Source: Candidatus Rokuibacteriota bacterium
GTDB taxonomy: Bacteria > Methylomirabilota > Methylomirabilia > Rokubacteriales > CSP1-6
NCBI GenBank assembly: GCA_003220435.1
Contig: QHSL01000064.1
Span: forward strand, 1 to 64,000
DNA length: 64,000 nucleotides
Direction: 5' to 3'
The notes under the pieces were generated by a model. The model saw nothing but the letters and a program-made list of their open reading frames with translations. It was not told the origin of the DNA and made no database searches. Both the position numbers and the translations under genes were made by a program. Positions 991-9,932 of this stretch are shown here, piece after piece. Every line of letters starts with the position of its first letter. Position 1 is the first letter of the stretch.

Positions 991-1098
991 GAGCGCTCAC
1001 CCACCGGCGCGACGGGCACGGGGTGGGAGTCCACGCCGTGGCACGCGACGCAGCGCGCGGCGTGGGAGGCGCTACGAGAGGCCATCCGCGACGACTAG
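970..1098 (+). pseudogene. C-terminal tail of an unidentified protein fused to the ABC relic
   Basis: Just where the ABC binding-protein homology ends, another frame carries protein-like sequence (SPTGATGTGWESTPWHATQ, then a helix-like RAAWEALREAIRDD) and ends at TAG 1096-1098. It has no start codon of its own and is closed upstream by TAA 910-912, so only a 3' fragment is present. Its composition (three Trp in about 30 residues, helical acidic end) looks like a genuine protein terminus, but I do not recognise the family. Its stop overlaps the stop of the convergent gene at 1095-1337. Confidence 0.35.
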
Positions 1099-1337
1099 GC
1101 GGCGAGCCTTTCGTGATCCCAGACTTGGAAACATCGGACGTGCAACTGAAGGAGCCTCCTGCCGAGGTCCATCGGGACCCCTTCCATCAGCATCTGGTCC
1201 TTCGAGAGGATCGCGTCGCAACCGTTGCACCTTTCGCCGTCGCTTCGACTACTCCAGACCTTTTTGATGCCGTCGCGCGGCAGGCGCCCGTCCTGGAGCT
1301 TGCGTCGGATGAGAAGACGGAGAGATTCCGGGTCCAT
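1095..1337 (-). CDS. Small putative zinc-binding protein, C-x2-C and H-x2-C
   Basis: This 80-residue protein starts at MDPESLRLLIRRKL; the ATG at 1337 is preceded by GAGG at good spacing, so I prefer it to an in-frame start 14 codons upstream. A basic N-terminal helix with GRLPRD is followed by CNGCD and, about 35 residues later, HVRCF, a C2HC pattern that could hold one zinc ion. Short proteins of this layout recur as hypothetical genes in Rokubacteria, NC10 and Burkholderiales genomes, often near regulators or mobile genes; no function is established. It is the only minus-strand gene within the accessory region. Confidence 0.6.
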   Translation of the reverse strand: MDPESLRLLIRRKLQDGRLPRDGIKKVWSSRSDGERCNGCDAILSKDQMLMEGVPMDLGRRLLQLHVRCFQVWDHERLAA

Positions 1338-1449
1338 AGTGGCCTCGCGGGTAGTGGCGGTCGCGAAGACACGCCACATTCACCTGGGTCCTGCCGCCTG
1401 CGGCGGCAACCCATGAGGCCGAGGTGCAGGCGCGCGGAGCATAGCACGG

Positions 1450-2705: not shown

Positions 2706-2852
2706 GTCCACCGACTTACGAGACGCTTGCCGCCGATTTTATCCCTTTGTCCTGATTTTGTGCTGAAACCTCAAGCGAGGCGACGGCCTCCCGGAGCCAT
2801 TAAGCGACAATGTGGGTTTAAAGCGGTTCACCCGCGCGAATGTGATTGGATC

Positions 2853-3170
2853 TTATGGCCGTCGTGGCGCGATCTCCAGCCCGGTGAGCCCCAGCGCGTC
2901 GAGCAACCTCCCCCGCTTGCTCAAGTCGCCGAAGATCCGGCGGACCGGCGGGGGGGCGAGCTTGATCAGGGTGGGCGTGACCATGATGCTGTCGTCCAGG
3001 CCGCGCTGCGGCTCCCGCAGGATGTCGATGATCTCGAGCTCACAACCATTGGGTAGGAACTCGCGGCACACGGCCTCGAGGTTGGCGATCGCGCGTACGG
3101 CTGTCGACTCCCGATCTGCCACGTACAGGCGTACCACGAAGGGCTCGCGTTGGTCGGGTCTCTTCGCCAT
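2853..3170 (-). CDS. kaiB: Circadian clock-type protein KaiB
   Basis: The 105-residue product matches KaiB over its full length: FVVRLYVADRESTAVRAIANLE, the TPTLIKL strand and PPVRRIFGDLS near the end. KaiB is a thioredoxin-like, fold-switching protein that binds the CI ring of KaiC. The ATG at 3170 is favoured over TTG 3176, which would overlap the kaiC stop; a GAGGA lies just before it. It is the distal gene of a kaiC-kaiB pair. No kaiA is present, as usual outside cyanobacteria, so a self-sustained oscillator cannot be assumed; an hourglass timer or stress-signalling role is also possible. Confidence 0.93.
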   Translation of the reverse strand: MAKRPDQREPFVVRLYVADRESTAVRAIANLEAVCREFLPNGCELEIIDILREPQRGLDDSIMVTPTLIKLAPPPVRRIFGDLSKRGRLLDALGLTGLEIAPRRP

Positions 3171-3172
3171 CG

Positions 3173-4930
3173 TCAATCCTCGGTTGGAGCGCTGCGGCCC
3201 TTCCTACGTCGGGCGCGGGACGCCGGTCCCCCGCCACGCCGAGCGCGGACTTCCTGTAGCCGTCGCGATTCATTTCGCTCGCGGAGCGTGACGGTCTGGT
3301 CCAACAAGCGCATCTCGGCGGCCAGACTCTGCCGGCGGCGCTCCAGCCCCTCCGTTTGCGCCCGGATCTCCGCCGCCAGGCTTTCCAGCTCCCGGCGCTT
3401 CCGCGCTTCTTCCTCCTCGACGTCCCGCTGCGTGGCAGCCTCGATGCGTTCCCTCTCCCAGCGCGCGGTGCCCATCAACGCCTCGCCGCCGACGGTGTAC
3501 ACATCGGCCAGGTCGATCCCCTGATCGTCGAGGATCAGCTCGCGCACCTGGTGCGAGTGTCCGGTGCCGCGCGACTTGATGACCGTCAACGAGCGGTTGC
3601 GTTCTCCTCGCCCGGCTCGGTACGAGAGGTGGATCCACGTGTCGGCGACTGTCGAGACGTGAAGCGGCGTGGCTTCCATCGCCTCTTCGCTCCCCTGGTA
3701 GAGGCTGGTCCACAGCGTCGTTACCCCCTCGGACTTCGCCATCGCGAGCAGCCGCTCCGCCACCCCCAACGCGGTCGATTGCCCTCCCATCCTGATCGCC
3801 GCCGAGATAGGATCGATGACCAGCGTGCTGGGTCGGTGCGCTCGGATCCGCTGCCGCAGGCGCACGAACTGCTCCTCCGGGCTGGTCGCCTGGGGTTGAT
3901 CCGCGTGGATCTCCAGCAGTCGCGACCGCACGTACCGCTCGAGGCGAAGGCTCACCGACGCCAGGTTGCGGATGATCTCGGCGGGCTGCTCGTCCAGACT
4001 GATGTAGAGCGCCCGCTCGCCGCGGGCGCAAGCCGCGGCGACGAAGGCGCCGGCGAGCGTGGTCTTGGCGGTTCCGGGCATGCCGGTCACCAGCACCGTG
4101 CTTCCCCGGAAGTATCCACCGGCCAGCATGTTGTCGAGACGCGGAATACCGCTCGACACGCGCTCGGCGAACACGCGGTACCTCGGCCGCGTGCCGAAGT
4201 CGGCGACCTCGATGCCCTGGGACGCGATGGCGAAGGGAAACTCATTGGCGACGAATGCGGAGCCGCGGTACTTGACGACCCGGAAGGCGCGGATCGAGGC
4301 GCGCTCCGCCAGACGGTGGGTCAGCTGGATGATGCAGTCGGATAGCGACAGCATGAAACTGCCGGGGGGCTCGGGGCCTGTCGTCGACATGGTGACGACG
4401 CCCGCCAGGCCGGCGCGTTCGAGGAGGTCGTGGATGCGGCACATCTCCCCGCGCTCGACTCGCGGATCGTTCAGCATCACGAGGAGGACGTCGATCCCGT
4501 CGAACACGATCCGCTTGGCGCCGATCTCCTTGGCCCGGAATTCGACCGCGGCGATCAGGCCGCTCAGGTCGAACGTGCCGGCCTGCACTGCCCCCGGAGA
4601 CAGCCGGCTGTCGACGAACGCCAGCCGCGGGCTCCTCCGCCCCCGCTTCTGGACGAGACTGGGGATTCCCCAGCCGAAGGACGCGGCGTTGGCGACGACC
4701 TGCTGGAAGCCTTCCTCGAAGGCGACGAAAATGCCGGGCTCGTCGAACCGCCGGGCGCCGTTCACCAGCGTCTGGAGCGCCAACACCGTCTTGCCCGACC
4801 CCGCCGGGCCGGTCAGCAGTGTCGCGCGGCCACGCGGCAACCCTCCGCCGGTGATTTCGTCGACTCCGTCGATTCCGGTCGGCGCCTTCGCCAGGCGCGG
4901 CTCGCGCTCTTTCTGATTTCTGCGTGCCAT
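3173..4930 (-). CDS. kaiC: KaiC-type double-RecA ATPase/autokinase with C-terminal coiled-coil extension
   Basis: This 585-residue protein has two RecA domains. CI has Walker A GPAGSGKT at about 41-48 and the catalytic Glu pair in AFEEG (72-73). CII has GMPGTAKT at about 283-290 and an LDEQ in place of the usual Glu-Glu. The phosphorylation segment HVSTVADTW keeps the adjacent Ser-Thr (about 426-427) that corresponds to S431/T432 of cyanobacterial KaiC, so autophosphorylation is plausible. After about residue 485 comes a long charged helix (EEEEARKRRELESLAAEIR and onward), predicted coiled coil, ending in a basic tail; cyanobacterial KaiC instead ends in a short A-loop and tail. The start is ATG 4930, with a possible TTG two codons upstream. 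It is followed by kaiB. Confidence 0.93.
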   Translation of the reverse strand: MARRNQKEREPRLAKAPTGIDGVDEITGGGLPRGRATLLTGPAGSGKTVLALQTLVNGARRFDEPGIFVAFEEGFQQVVANAASFGWGIPSLVQKRGRRSPRLAFVDSRLSPGAVQAGTFDLSGLIAAVEFRAKEIGAKRIVFDGIDVLLVMLNDPRVERGEMCRIHDLLERAGLAGVVTMSTTGPEPPGSFMLSLSDCIIQLTHRLAERASIRAFRVVKYRGSAFVANEFPFAIASQGIEVADFGTRPRYRVFAERVSSGIPRLDNMLAGGYFRGSTVLVTGMPGTAKTTLAGAFVAAACARGERALYISLDEQPAEIIRNLASVSLRLERYVRSRLLEIHADQPQATSPEEQFVRLRQRIRAHRPSTLVIDPISAAIRMGGQSTALGVAERLLAMAKSEGVTTLWTSLYQGSEEAMEATPLHVSTVADTWIHLSYRAGRGERNRSLTVIKSRGTGHSHQVRELILDDQGIDLADVYTVGGEALMGTARWERERIEAATQRDVEEEEARKRRELESLAAEIRAQTEGLERRRQSLAAEMRLLDQTVTLRERNESRRLQEVRARRGGGPASRARRRKGRSAPTED

Positions 4931-4976
4931 GCCCAATCAGCGTCCTCGGACTCTATGCTCTTCCCCGGCTCCCGCG

Positions 4977-6137
4977 TCACCGCGCGCCGTTGAGCTTGTA
5001 GAGCCTCGCGCAATTGTCCCACAGGATCTTGGCCTTCGTCTTGTCGGCGACGCCCTCGAGCGAGACGAACTCCTCGATCGCGTGCGGGAAGAGCCCGTCG
5101 GAGTGCGGGTAGTCGGTCGACACCACGATGTTGTCGTCGCCGACCGCCTCGACCACCTGCTTGAGCACCTTCTCGTCGGAATCGGTGGCCACGTAGCACT
5201 GGCGGAAGAAGTACTGGCTCGGGAGCTGCGAGATCTGCACGTCCGAGCCGGGGCCGAACTTCTCCCACGCCTCGTCGAGCCGCCAGAGCCACCACGGGAG
5301 CCAGCCGCAGGTGCCCTCGAGGAACGCGCAGCGGAGCCCGGGGTGCCGCTCGAGCACGCCGCCCGCCGCCATGCTCCCGAAGGCGAGCATCAGCTCCATC
5401 GGGTTACGGCCGGCGACACCGATGACGCGCCCGTTCGGATGGTCGAGATAGCGCCGCGCGATGTCGTCGCGGAGCGAGGCTTGGCCGGTCGGGTGGAAGC
5501 CCACCGGGACCTCGAGCTCTTCGACCGCGCACCAGAGCGGCTCGAATTCGGGGTCGTGAATGTGACGGCCGTTCACCGGGTTGGGGTTGCCGATGACGGC
5601 GACGGCGCCCAGCTCGCGCACCGCGCGCCGGGCCTCCCGGATGGCGAGATCGACGTCGTGGAACGAGATCTGCGCGGCGAACTTCAGCCGCTGTGGACGG
5701 TAGGCGCAGAAGTCGCGGGTCCAGTTGTTGTGGGCGCGGGCCAGCGCGGCGGCCACCTGGGGATCGAGGTCGTCGTGCATCTGCACCTGGCGCCCGCGCG
5801 TGCCGTAAATCACCGCGACGTCGATCCCCTCGATGTCCATCGCGGCCACGTGCGATTCGGAGTCGTAGCCGCGCGCGTGGGCGATCTCGTAGTGCGGATG
5901 GCGGGCGAAGGCGCGCGCCTGGAGATCCTTGCCGACCAGCGCGGTCTGGGTGCGCCTGGACATCTCGCCGATCTCGAGCTGCCCGATGCGGATGATCGGC
6001 TGATTCGTCGCGTTCTCCGTGCGGCGGACGAACTGCGGCGCGAACTTCGTGAACGGCTCCTCGAGGTACTGCTCCCAGAGGCCGTCGGGCTCCATCGTGT
6101 GCAGATCGCTGTCCAGGACCTTGAACCCGTTCTTCAT
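4977..6137 (-). CDS. Amidohydrolase-2 / ACMSD-like metal-dependent hydrolase
   Basis: The 386-residue protein belongs to the amidohydrolase superfamily branch of aminocarboxymuconate-semialdehyde decarboxylase. Visible ligands are the first-strand DSDLH (in place of the usual HxH), the mid-protein His in GFHPTG, and the late STDYPHSDG carrying the catalytic Asp, which suggests a single-metal site. Such enzymes are expanded in Rokubacteria-like genomes and catalyse decarboxylation or hydrolysis of carboxylated ring-opening products; the substrate here is unknown. The ATG at 6137 has GGGAG about 7 bases upstream. The gene sits between the rpoS cluster and kaiC with a 46-bp gap to kaiC, so co-transcription is possible but not shown. 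Confidence 0.85.
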   Translation of the reverse strand: MKNGFKVLDSDLHTMEPDGLWEQYLEEPFTKFAPQFVRRTENATNQPIIRIGQLEIGEMSRRTQTALVGKDLQARAFARHPHYEIAHARGYDSESHVAAMDIEGIDVAVIYGTRGRQVQMHDDLDPQVAAALARAHNNWTRDFCAYRPQRLKFAAQISFHDVDLAIREARRAVRELGAVAVIGNPNPVNGRHIHDPEFEPLWCAVEELEVPVGFHPTGQASLRDDIARRYLDHPNGRVIGVAGRNPMELMLAFGSMAAGGVLERHPGLRCAFLEGTCGWLPWWLWRLDEAWEKFGPGSDVQISQLPSQYFFRQCYVATDSDEKVLKQVVEAVGDDNIVVSTDYPHSDGLFPHAIEEFVSLEGVADKTKAKILWDNCARLYKLNGAR

Positions 6138-6241: not shown

Positions 6242-7168
6242 TCAGGGCCTGAACAGATCGGATGGGTCGAACCCGCGGGCCGCCAGCAGCGCGCGGAGCT
6301 TCCGAAGCCCCGCCGCCTCGAGCTGCCGGATGCGCTCGCGGGTGAGACCGAGTCGCTGACCGATGGTCTCGAGCTTCTCCGGCGGGTCGCCTTCCAGTCC
6401 GAAGCGCCGTCGCAGCACGGTGCGCTCGTTGGCGGCGAGATCGTCGAGCGCCGAGACCAGATCGGCGCGCTCGCGGAACAGCGACGTCAGGGCGTCGCTC
6501 GGATCCGCCGACCGGTCGACCACCAGATCGCCGACTCGATGCTTCCCCTCGCCCAGGGGCGCATCGAGCGACAGCGGCTGCTGCCGGATCTCCTCCAGCT
6601 CCTCGATCTGCTCCGCGGTGAGGCGGAGTGCCGCCGCCAGCTCCTCCACCGTCGGCGGACGCTCGAGCGCCTGCGTGAGCCGCTGCTGCTCGTTCACATA
6701 GCGTCCGAGCAGCAGCTCGACGTGCACCGGGAGGCGGATCGTGCGCGCCTGGTTCGCCAGCGCGCGCACGACGGCCTGGCGAATCCACCACGTCGCGTAC
6801 GTCGAAAAACGGGTGCCGCGGTCGGGGTCGAACTTCTCTACCGCGCGCAGCAGGCCGATGTTCCCCTCTTCGATCAGGTCGGGCAGCGGCAGGCCGCGGT
6901 TCAGATAGCGACGGGCGACCTGGACGACGAGTCTCAAGTTGGCCTCGGTGAGCGCCGCCTTGGCCGCCGCGTCCCCTGCCCGAACGCGCCGCGCCAGCGC
7001 CGCTTCTTCCTCACGCGACAGGAGCGGAATCCGCGCGATCTCCTTCAGGTAGACCCTGAGGTTCTCACGGCTCGTCGCCCGCGTCTCCTCGCGCACGTCC
7101 TCGTCGACGTCGTCGACGAGCGTGTCGAGCGGCTCGTCGGGAACGACCTCCTCGGCCTCCTCACTCAT
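6242..7168 (-). CDS. rpoS: RNA polymerase sigma factor, RpoS/group-2 sigma-70 type
   Basis: The 308-residue product has the sigma-70 regions in order: an acidic N-terminus, region 1.2 ([16 protein letters not shown]), regions 2.1-2.4 ([37 protein letters not shown] and [17 protein letters not shown]), region 3 ([11 protein letters not shown]), and region 4 ending in a helix-turn-helix ([18 protein letters not shown]). It lacks the long non-conserved region of RpoD, so it is an alternative group-2 factor. Its position downstream of surE, pcm and nlpD is the classic arrangement of rpoS, which argues for a general stress or stationary-phase role. Its ATG overlaps the nlpD stop by 8 bases. Confidence 0.9.
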
Positions 7169-7979
7169 GCGGCGGGCCCTGGTCCATTTCTTCGTCGACC
7201 TGCGCGACCCGCGGCGGCAGCGGGAGCAGATAGAGCGGGTTGTAGGCGTGCCCTTCGCGCCTGATCTCGAAGTGCAGGTGGTCGGTCGTCGCCCGCCCGG
7301 TGCGGCCCACGAGGGCGATGATCTGGCCGGCGTCGACGCGCTCGCCGGCGTCGACCAGGTTCACGTCGTTGTGCGCGTACACGGTGACGAAGCCGTCCCG
7401 GTGCTCGATCTTGACGACCTGGCCATAGCGCGCTTCGATGCCGCTCACCACGACGATGCCGGCGGCCGCCGCCTGCACCAGGGTGCCGGGCGGGGCCTTG
7501 ATGTCGATCCCGCCGTGCCAGCCGCTCCGGCGATGGCCGAACGTCGAGATCACGGGGCCCTCGGCCGGCCACACGAACGGCGGCGTGGCCTGGTCGAAGT
7601 CCGGCACCGCGAGGACGAGGCCCGCTGGTGCGCGCGCCGTGGCCGAGACCGCCACCGGACCAACACCTTTGCCCGCCGCGGGCGCGGTTTCCCGCTGGGT
7701 CACCATCGAATCCGGGCCGGGAATCACGAGGCGGCGACCGACTTTCAGGAGAGCGTTGGCGTTGGGGAGCCGGTTCGCCTTGACGATCGCGGCGATGGTG
7801 ACGCGGTACTTCTTGGCGAGCGCGGTCAGGGTGTCGCCCGCCTTCACCTCGTGCGTACGCTGCGAAGCGCGCGGTCCGGCGACAGGCTCGGCGGGCGCGG
7901 CCGCGGGGCCGAGGGCGACGATCAGCCCGAGGGCGGCCAGCCCCAGCCGCGTGCCGTCGCGTATCGCGCACGCGCTCAC
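7161..7979 (-). CDS. nlpD: NlpD-like LysM/M23 murein hydrolase (activator)
   Basis: The 272-residue envelope protein starts at GTG 7979, overlapping the acyP stop (GTGA). An N-terminal signal or anchor segment ([17 protein letters not shown]) has no clear lipobox Cys. A LysM domain follows ([18 protein letters not shown]...[11 protein letters not shown]), and a C-terminal M23/LytM domain carries HGGID, YAHN and [10 protein letters not shown]. The zinc ligands HxxxD and HxH are kept, so unlike E. coli NlpD it may hydrolyse peptidoglycan cross-links itself. Lying between surE-pcm and rpoS, it probably also carries the promoter region for rpoS, as known in proteobacteria. Confidence 0.9.
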
Positions 7980-8272
7980 GACTCGAACTCTGCGTACCGG
8001 ATGCCGAAGGCGCCGAACCGACCGCTCGCCGGGAGCCAGCGGACGGTGACGTTTTCCACGCGGCTGAGCGGCGGGCCCTTCCCGAGGTCGCGGATGAATT
8101 CCTCGATGATCGGGCGCGGCCCCTCGCAACGCGCACGCACGCGCCCGTCCTTCAGGTTCATCACGAAGCCGTTGAGGCCAAGGCTCGAGGCGCGACGTTG
8201 CGCGTAATTGCGATAGCCGACGCCCTGGATGCGTCCCTCGACGATGATCTCTGCCGCCGATCTCGCGCTCAC
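7976..8272 (-). CDS. acyP: Acylphosphatase
   Basis: This 98-residue protein is of the usual acylphosphatase length. The signature GRIQGVGYRNYAQRRA holds the phosphate-binding loop with its catalytic Arg, and GFVMNLKDGRV holds the catalytic Asn. It hydrolyses carboxyl-phosphate bonds such as acetyl-type acyl phosphates in the cytoplasm. Its stop overlaps the nlpD start. Insertion of acyP between pcm and nlpD is not part of the classic surE-pcm-nlpD-rpoS order. Confidence 0.93.
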   Translation of the reverse strand: MSARSAAEIIVEGRIQGVGYRNYAQRRASSLGLNGFVMNLKDGRVRARCEGPRPIIEEFIRDLGKGPPLSRVENVTVRWLPASGRFGAFGIRYAEFES

Positions 8273-8297
8273 TGGTCTGTGGCTCGGATTTCAGTCG

Positions 8298-8332
8298 CCG
8301 CTCGGCGGCCGGCCTGACCGGCCGCCGAGCGG
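8298..8332 (-). terminator. Perfect 15-bp hairpin between tRNA-Pro(CGG) and acyP
   Basis: Arms 8298-8312 and 8318-8332 are perfectly complementary, G/C-rich, with a 5-base loop. On the minus strand it lies 9 bases after the tRNA 3' CCA end and 25 bases before the acyP start. No U-run follows, so it may act as a Rho-type or partial terminator, or as an RNA-processing or stability hairpin separating the tRNA from the mRNA. Confidence 0.6.
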
Positions 8333-8341
8333 GCGGAGAGA

Positions 8342-8418
<77 letters not shown>

Positions 8419-8445
8419 ACACGACGGGCCCATTGTACAGAATCG

Positions 8446-9102
8446 TCAGGCCTCCCAGGCGTACTTTCCCACGAGCTTCACGAACTTGCACTCGCCGCAG
8501 AGCCGCGTCTTCATTTCGCCGCCGATCTTCTCCACGACGGTCAGCGTCTGGTTCACCGCGTCGCCGACCGGCACCACCATGCGTCCGCCCTCGCCGAGCT
8601 GCTGGAACAGCGGCGGCGGCACCGACGGCCCGCCGGCGGTCACCAGGATCCTATCGAACGGGGCCTCGTCGGGCCAGCCGAGCGTTCCGCTGCCGACACG
8701 CACCCACACGTTGTCGTACCCGAGCCGCTCCAGCAGCGCGCGCGCCCGCTCGGCCAGGCGCGACAGCCGCTCGATCGAGCAGACGCGCCGCGCCAGCTCG
8801 GCGAGCACCGCGGTCTGGTAGCCGGAGCCGGTGCCGACTTCGAGGACCTTCTCCTGGCCGCGCAGCTCGAGGAGCTGCGTCATGAGCCCGACGATGTAGG
8901 GCTGGGAGATGGTTTGCTCCTCGCCGATCGGAAGAGGGTGGTCGCCGTGCGCACGGTTCTGCAACGCCTCCTCGACGAAGAGATGGCGCGGCACCCGGCG
9001 CATCGCAGTGAGGACGTGCTCGTCGGTGACGCCGCGGCGCGCGAGCTGCTCCTCGACCATGCGCGCGCGGGCCGCCTCGAACGCGTCGCGGGAGCGCTCC
9101 AC
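8446..9102 (-). CDS. pcm: Protein-L-isoaspartate O-methyltransferase
   Basis: The 218-residue product matches PCMT: ARARMVEEQLARRGVTDEHV at the start, the EEQTISQPYIVGLM substrate segment, and the SAM-binding motif I VLEVGTGSGYQTAVLAELA. It repairs isoaspartyl residues in aged proteins. The start GTG 9102 overlaps the surE stop by one base (TAGTG) and gives a normal N-terminus; longer readings run into surE. It belongs to the surE-pcm-nlpD-rpoS set. Confidence 0.95.
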   Translation of the reverse strand: MERSRDAFEAARARMVEEQLARRGVTDEHVLTAMRRVPRHLFVEEALQNRAHGDHPLPIGEEQTISQPYIVGLMTQLLELRGQEKVLEVGTGSGYQTAVLAELARRVCSIERLSRLAERARALLERLGYDNVWVRVGSGTLGWPDEAPFDRILVTAGGPSVPPPLFQQLGEGGRMVVPVGDAVNQTLTVVEKIGGEMKTRLCGECKFVKLVGKYAWEA

Positions 9103-9932
9103 TACCCGCTCCGCGGCTTCCTTTGTTGAGAGCCGCGCCTCGCCGCGGCCTTCGGCGCCGGCCCGGGCGCGCGCCCCGTCTCGCCGCGGAGCTGGGCGGA
9201 CAGGCCCGCGGGCCAGTCGTTGAGCTCCATCAGCGCGCGGTGGTTGGTGAGGTCGAGGTGCAGCGGCGTGACCGAGACGTAGCCCTCGTGCACCGCGGCC
9301 ATGTCGGTGTCCTCGAGGTCCTCCCACTTGGGATCGCCGCCGCCGATCCAGTAATGGCTCCGGCCGCGCGGATCGACCTGCTCGATGATCTTGCCCGAGT
9401 ACACGCGGTGGCCCAGCCGCGTCAGCCGGATGCCGCGCGGGGCGCTCGCCGGCACGTTCACGTTGAGCAGCGTCTTGCGCGGGAGCCCGACGACCAGCAC
9501 GCGCAGCGCCAGCAGGCGAGCGATGCGCGCGGCCGCGTCGAAGTCGCCGCCGTCCACGAGCGAGACCGCGATCGAGGGGACGCCGAGGAGGGTGCCCTCC
9601 ATCGCGGCCGAGACGGTCCCGGAGTAGGTGACGTCGTCACCGAGGTTGGTCCCGTGGTTGACGCCGGACACGACCAGAACGGGCGGCGCCGGCAAGAAGC
9701 CGAGGACCGCCAGGTTCACGCAATCGGAGGGGGTGCCGTTGACTGCGAAGCGACGCTCGCCGAGCTGCACCGGCCGGATGGGCCGGTGCAGCGTCAGCGC
9801 GTGTCCGCAGGCGCTCTGCTCCCGCTCGGGGGCCACGATGTAGACGTCACCGAGCTCGGCCAACGCCCTCCCGAGCGCCGCCAGGCCCTCTGCGTGAACG
9901 CCGTCATCGTTGGTGAGCAGTACGACGGACAT
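9102..9932 (-). CDS. surE: 5'/3'-nucleotidase SurE
   Basis: The 276-residue protein begins MSVVLLTNDDGVHAEG, carrying the metal-binding Asp pair. It contains VSGVNHGTNLGDDVTYSGTVSAAMEG, the hallmark active-site segment of SurE, and NVNVP further on. The family dephosphorylates nucleoside monophosphates and short polyphosphates under stress. The length is slightly above average because of a basic Ala/Pro-rich tail. It is the first protein gene of the stress cluster; the 43-bp repeat begins 12 bases before its ATG. Confidence 0.96.
   Translation of the reverse strand: MSVVLLTNDDGVHAEGLAALGRALAELGDVYIVAPEREQSACGHALTLHRPIRPVQLGERRFAVNGTPSDCVNLAVLGFLPAPPVLVVSGVNHGTNLGDDVTYSGTVSAAMEGTLLGVPSIAVSLVDGGDFDAAARIARLLALRVLVVGLPRKTLLNVNVPASAPRGIRLTRLGHRVYSGKIIEQVDPRGRSHYWIGGGDPKWEDLEDTDMAAVHEGYVSVTPLHLDLTNHRALMELNDWPAGLSAQLRGETGRAPGPAPKAAARRGSQQRKPRSG

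Follow-up and report, generated by a model that had tools for sequence, protein, structure and literature searches.

The window, a stretch of 64,000 nucleotides from a contig of a soil Candidatus Rokuibacteriota, carries an intact kaiC–kaiB pair whose KaiC ends in a long helical tail. We read this pair, with a probability of about 0.6, as a KaiA-independent KaiB–KaiC timer of the R. sphaeroides kind (KaiBC-only, hourglass), in which tails would pair two KaiC hexamers into a dodecamer and the ATP/ADP balance would drive phosphorylation. The basis of this reading is the homology of the tail, its predicted helix, a heptad phase shared with other tails, membership of the tailed clade, a genome with no KaiA and a single KaiB domain, and purifying selection on kaiC. 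From these we infer the dodecamer, the register shift, kinase activity, KaiB binding and output in the window system. What is new is the combination of traits, namely the tail, Ser-Thr phosphosites, a retained Arg385 counterpart, Asp-Glu in CII, no linked kinase and a mobile cassette; the tail itself is already known.

The gene pair and its genome

The two genes are adjacent and intact on the minus strand (Table 1). TTG codons at 4936 and 3176 are possible alternative starts of kaiC and kaiB, respectively, the latter giving a KaiB of 107 residues; the kaiB orthologue in G037, a genome of another genus, likewise encodes 105. Depending on the start, kaiB overlaps the kaiC stop or begins 2 nt past it, making translational coupling likely. 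The Pfam KaiC match (E 1.1e-81) spans two domains, and NCBIfam PRK09302 (KaiC) exceeds its own cut-off, so that tandem CI and CII are present. KaiB matches its Pfam family (E 1.8e-19) and keeps the conserved P-x-P-x-R and G-D-x-S region; the pLDDT of its structure model (55) is too low to separate the ground from the switched fold. KaiA (PF07688) had no match in the window genome, which is 95.5% complete, with a positive Synechococcus control, and the sole KaiB-domain match in that genome was KaiB itself, with no SasA-type KaiB-like sensor domain found. A canonical KaiABC clock is ruled out on these grounds. The preliminary description of this DNA, made from the sequence alone, had proposed a kaiC–kaiB pair without kaiA, with both RecA domains and a complete KaiB, acting as a KaiA-independent module, and each of these points is supported.

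Table 1 Features of the kaiC–kaiB locus (window positions)
Feature	Position	Strand	Basis	Remarks
kaiC	3173..4930	minus		585 aa from ATG; two KaiC/RecA domains and C-terminal helical tail
kaiB	2853..3170	minus		105 aa from ATG
CI catalytic Glu pair, E72-E73	4712..4717	minus	alignment	
CII Walker A, GMPGTAKT	4061..4084	minus		A288 where Gly before Lys is usual
CII D313-E314	3989..3994	minus		counterpart of S. elongatus E318-E319
R380	3791..3793	minus		counterpart of S. elongatus R385 (Walker-B Arg)
Phosphosites S426-T427	3650..3655	minus		H-V-S-T
KaiC tail, residues 487-585	3176..3472	minus		
Predicted uninterrupted tail helix, residues 487-564	3239-3472	minus	AlphaFold	78 residues
kaiC–kaiB cassette, sharply bounded	2818..4953 (approximate)		DNA comparison	2.1 kb

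The preliminary description had also suggested looking for linked histidine kinases. None directly follows kaiB in the window or in G037; of the 63 HATPase matches in the window genome none adjoins kaiBC, and one weak match lies about 15 kb away in contig C3. Congeneric Rokubacteria (G048, G053 and G050) are organized differently: their KaiCs are 39% identical to the window KaiC, have Ser-Ser sites and bear the tail in the two intact copies, and beside them stand a pair of kaiB genes and a kinase of the PAS-HisKA-HATPase-receiver type, whereas the window has one KaiB and no linked kinase. That kinase has no close orthologue in the window genome (best 32%). The G050 kaiC (L051 7986-10066), which precedes two kaiB genes and a kinase, is split into two frames by a frameshift or an assembly error. 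KaiC2-type operons of R. palustris and rhizobia, with kaiC, kaiB and a PAS/histidine kinase gene (PMC4794148), share with the window the long C-terminus, the downstream kaiB and the lack of KaiA; they differ in having T-S-S rather than T-S-T sites and a linked kinase.

The C-terminal tail

Past the column of S. elongatus residue 487, the window KaiC continues for 103 residues, compared with 97 in R. sphaeroides and 32 in S. elongatus, as expected of the tailed clade, whose KaiCs extend about 50 residues past the others; the extension is predicted to be helical. Searching the PDB with phmmer placed the R. sphaeroides KaiC dodecamers 8dba and 8fwi first (E 7e-104), and the alignment spans residues 13-557, reaching into the tail, whereas most cyanobacterial KaiC alignments end at about 479. 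AlphaFold, run on the window KaiC as a monomer with an alignment of 10 rows (mean pLDDT 75.5), gave a single tail helix with pLDDT mostly between 70 and 87, so that the long helical tail of the preliminary description stood up in a monomer model. Confidence in this model is low in the A-loop region (478-492), and its final 21 residues, which are basic, come out as disordered. In Foldseek searches with the model, the best 12 matches were all R. sphaeroides KaiC entries. Among them, the truncated 8db3 superposes on the core at 2.8 Å, and where full-length matches show a large rmsd, the orientation of domains and tail is probably the cause.

The R. sphaeroides tail joins two hexamers as a 12-helix coiled coil, and that KaiC works without KaiA, its exposed A-loop giving KaiA-independent phosphorylation; by shifting its register, the coiled coil makes dephosphorylation faster, and the ATP/ADP ratio resets the timer (PMC10076222, Pitsawong 2023). 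A conserved G-x-x-R junction marks the start of the tails; with heptads counted from there, the phase that best fits the bulky hydrophobics was identical in eight of nine. In the heptad test the window tail scored p 0.03, its orthologue 0.006 and the solved R. sphaeroides tail 0.08. With composition controlled, tail-to-tail sequence similarity was weak (z 1.1-3.4 against shuffles), and the tail evidence considered by itself is modest.

Weak heptads, a charged fraction of 47% and several salt bridges of the i/i+4 type would fit a charged single α-helix that acts as a spacer and forms no coiled coil. We regard this as highly improbable, since the charge and salt-bridge counts resemble those of other tails, the solved coiled coil included, and bulky hydrophobics amount to 39% at a/d positions against 11% elsewhere. 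Alternatively, the tail could recruit a different partner, such as an output protein, instead of a second KaiC hexamer. The basic, disordered last 21 residues are in keeping with such a role, as is the missing linked kinase, which would require another output; the homologous tail in the solved structure nevertheless pairs with KaiC itself (PMC10076222) and the cassette carries no additional conserved gene, and we consider a different partner quite unlikely. The preliminary description had called recruitment plausible, but it is unneeded: the tail matches that of R. sphaeroides in its place and length, its heptad phase and its clade. It had also said that its proposal would fall if a characterised KaiC subgroup proved to have such a tail in common, and this is what we find, in R. 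sphaeroides and in R. palustris, whose KaiC has a longer C-terminus (PMC4794148). We conclude that the tail is of a known kind, ordinary for its clade.

Seven positions of the published allosteric network could be compared unambiguously. Four are identical in the window KaiC (S426, W432, V462 and R463), two are conservative (T427 and I451) and one is changed, the R. sphaeroides tyrosine (RS Y436) being replaced by T449; the R. sphaeroides plasmid reading frame that we used begins four residues ahead of the numbering in PMC10076222.

Clade membership and the CII active site

We built a tree on the core columns, leaving the tail out, with alphaproteobacterial and other comparator sequences supplied by plasmids; a search of viral_contigs for further relatives found none. 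Both the window KaiC and the orthologue from G037 fall into the tailed, R. sphaeroides-type clade, joining its other eight rows with support of 100/99, which answers the phylogenetic question raised in the preliminary description. They branch as sister to those eight, and their branch is long, at 1.03 changes per column. Support for the eight as a group is 83/96, or 82/93 once the distant outgroup is dropped, which makes the sister position likely, not proven. Separate trees also join the window KaiC to the tailed clade, at 91/91 for CI and 100/99 for CII, which rules out a mosaic of KaiC1/3 and tailed KaiC. Grouping with other Ser-Thr KaiCs was rejected (p-AU 0.001), as was shared ancestry of Asp-Glu with KaiB-less KaiC-like proteins (p-AU 0.0005), both values being indicative only because the groups were named after the residues had been seen and long branches are involved. 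It follows from the first rejection that Ser-Thr and Arg385 within the tailed clade are retained ancestral states or reversals, and from the second that Asp-Glu arose separately in the window lineage. On these sequence comparisons, the lineage is likely to be a deep, early-branching sister of the Ser-Ser tailed KaiCs. The KaiC of G026 (L052 8207-9757) is a member of the tailed clade that has no tail, and the end of its gene overlaps kaiB.

The defining traits of KaiC2 are a pair of serine phosphosites and a Walker-B arginine, taken here as R385, that has been lost (PMC5520375, Schmelling 2017). The window KaiC has Ser-Thr at the phosphosites, retains the arginine and has Asp-Glu in place of the catalytic EE of CII, and we therefore place it next to the tailed clade, as a sister variant, and not in KaiC2. 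Compared with R. sphaeroides (Cereibacter) KaiBC (8DBA, 8FWI, 8FWJ), it has the same two KaiC domains, an adjacent kaiB, no KaiA, the same clade and a tail equal in place, length and heptad phase. At about 38% identity, it differs in having S-T rather than S-S, D-E rather than E-E in CII, Arg385, the Walker A GMPGTAKT and no histidine kinase gene after kaiB. With S. elongatus KaiC (KaiABC) it shares the S-T phosphosites, His429, Arg385, Thr426 and the CI Glu pair, whereas that protein has no tail helix, needs KaiA and has Glu318.

Residue counterparts were assigned by alignment to S. elongatus KaiC, using a sequence that matches PDB 1u9i at 100%. The CI Glu pair and the Ser-Thr phosphosites noted in the preliminary description are kept, and its Asp-Glu for Glu-Glu in CII is borne out. 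The CII departures go further than that account, which mentioned neither the altered Walker A nor the kept R385 counterpart, a residue missing from the Ser-Ser tailed KaiCs. T421 corresponds to S. elongatus T426, Lys457 and Arg459 are kept as K452 and R454, and the other CII active-site residues checked are all kept, save the Walker A Gly to Ala. The two full-length members, from the window and from G037, both have D313 and A288. In S. elongatus, E318 activates the phospho-acceptor hydroxyls; E318A is without phosphoryl transfer and E318D is arrhythmic (PMC2777353). For this reason the CII Asp-Glu outweighs the tail in importance, and D313 makes the kinase activity of the window KaiC uncertain.

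The main rival to the hourglass timer is accordingly a switch that works as an ATPase only, with a weak or dead CII kinase and with timing through the CI ATPase, KaiB binding and nucleotide-driven changes of the coiled coil instead of a phosphorylation cycle. D313 and A288 in both full-length members, the S. elongatus mutants and a CII Asp-Glu also present in KaiB-less KaiC-like proteins from the bacterial family of this genome all speak for it. Yet T421, S426, T427, R380, K289, K452, R454 and E314 are unchanged, selection constrains CII no less than CI (dN/dS 0.18 versus 0.25), and Asp is able to serve as a general base, so that the kinase may work. We consider the ATPase-only switch unlikely.

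The cassette and the proposed timer

Over 2818 to about 4953, the window kaiBC is 94.8% identical at the DNA level to that of G037, and the partial kaiC copy in G046, from a third genus, matches the window gene at about 94%; outside the cassette, similarity to these copies stops abruptly. The preliminary description had no mention of this cassette. Synonymous divergence (dS) is 0.06-0.13 in kaiBC against 0.50-0.84 in the rpoS, nlpD, acylphosphatase and pcm genes between related genomes, and the kaiC dN/dS of 0.24 indicates purifying selection. Only six of 95 genomes of the phylum (Methylomirabilota) have kaiB. In G037 the cassette and the rpoS operon are on different contigs; in the window and G046 the cassette is near rpoS, but the immediate contexts differ. 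Recent transfer between genera would account best for this pattern of DNA similarity, the alternative being an assembly error in three separate MAGs, which is unlikely.

Several features surround the cassette. Copies in other Rokubacteria genera lie at L048 7371-9507 and L053 1-582. Just past the kaiB-side border in the window, at 2666-2705 on the minus strand, is the 5' half of a tRNA-Arg-like gene (GCCCCCGTAGCTCAGGTGGATAGAGCAACAGTTTCCTAA) that ends in the anticodon loop and is possibly a remnant of insertion; ARAGORN called no full tRNA there, and a 26-base piece of it recurs near kaiC in G046. A gene for a small C-x-x-C protein occurs near kaiBC in three genomes (window 1095-1379, minus strand; L048 9866-10115; L053 751-1005), with no Pfam match, about 75% DNA identity and a position on differing sides of the cassette. 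Upstream of kaiBC, a stationary-phase cluster of pcm, acylphosphatase, nlpD-like and rpoS-like genes occupies 6242-9327 on the minus strand, separated from kaiBC by one amidohydrolase gene (4977-6137). A reading frame resembling an ABC-transporter substrate-binding protein (436-1000) is apparently broken into pieces. A tyrosine-recombinase fragment suspected by eye beside kaiB in G037 was dropped, having no Pfam match.

For the hourglass timer we propose the following cycle. KaiC would form a double-ring hexamer, and two such hexamers would be held together as a dodecamer by a coiled-coil bundle of their 78-residue helices, tail against tail. At high ATP, CII would exchange nucleotide and autophosphorylate S426/T427 unaided, a self-sufficiency consistent with the missing KaiA-binding peptide and an A-loop region continuous with the tail. 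The phosphorylation state may then shift the register of the coiled coil, and this shift, together with KaiB bound to CI, would lead to dephosphorylation as ADP rises. With ATP driving phosphorylation and ADP driving dephosphorylation, the phase would track the energy state of the cell and would not be free-running. Against the hourglass timer we count the weak tail similarity and heptads, Asp for E318, the changed RS Y436, the low-confidence A-loop, the lack of a linked kinase output gene and the tailless KaiC of G026.

A tentative and rather doubtful extension is that the window belongs to a mobile branch of tailed KaiCs, carried as a two-gene cassette and intermediate between KaiABC and KaiBC-hourglass systems, in which a cyanobacterial-type S-T/Arg385 site with a weakened Asp base would sit on a coiled-coil dodecamer. 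Its timing might be set by nucleotide state, with phosphorylation cycling little or not at all.

Coiled-coil tails and Ser-Ser phosphosites usually co-occur. In the window the tail occurs with Ser-Thr and Arg385, so that the tail and the Ser-Ser sites are separable traits. Its natural counterpart of E318D tests whether a tail-driven KaiC needs the catalytic Glu, and a kinase-free pair of genes that travels between genera would offer a minimal timer for reconstitution in vitro.
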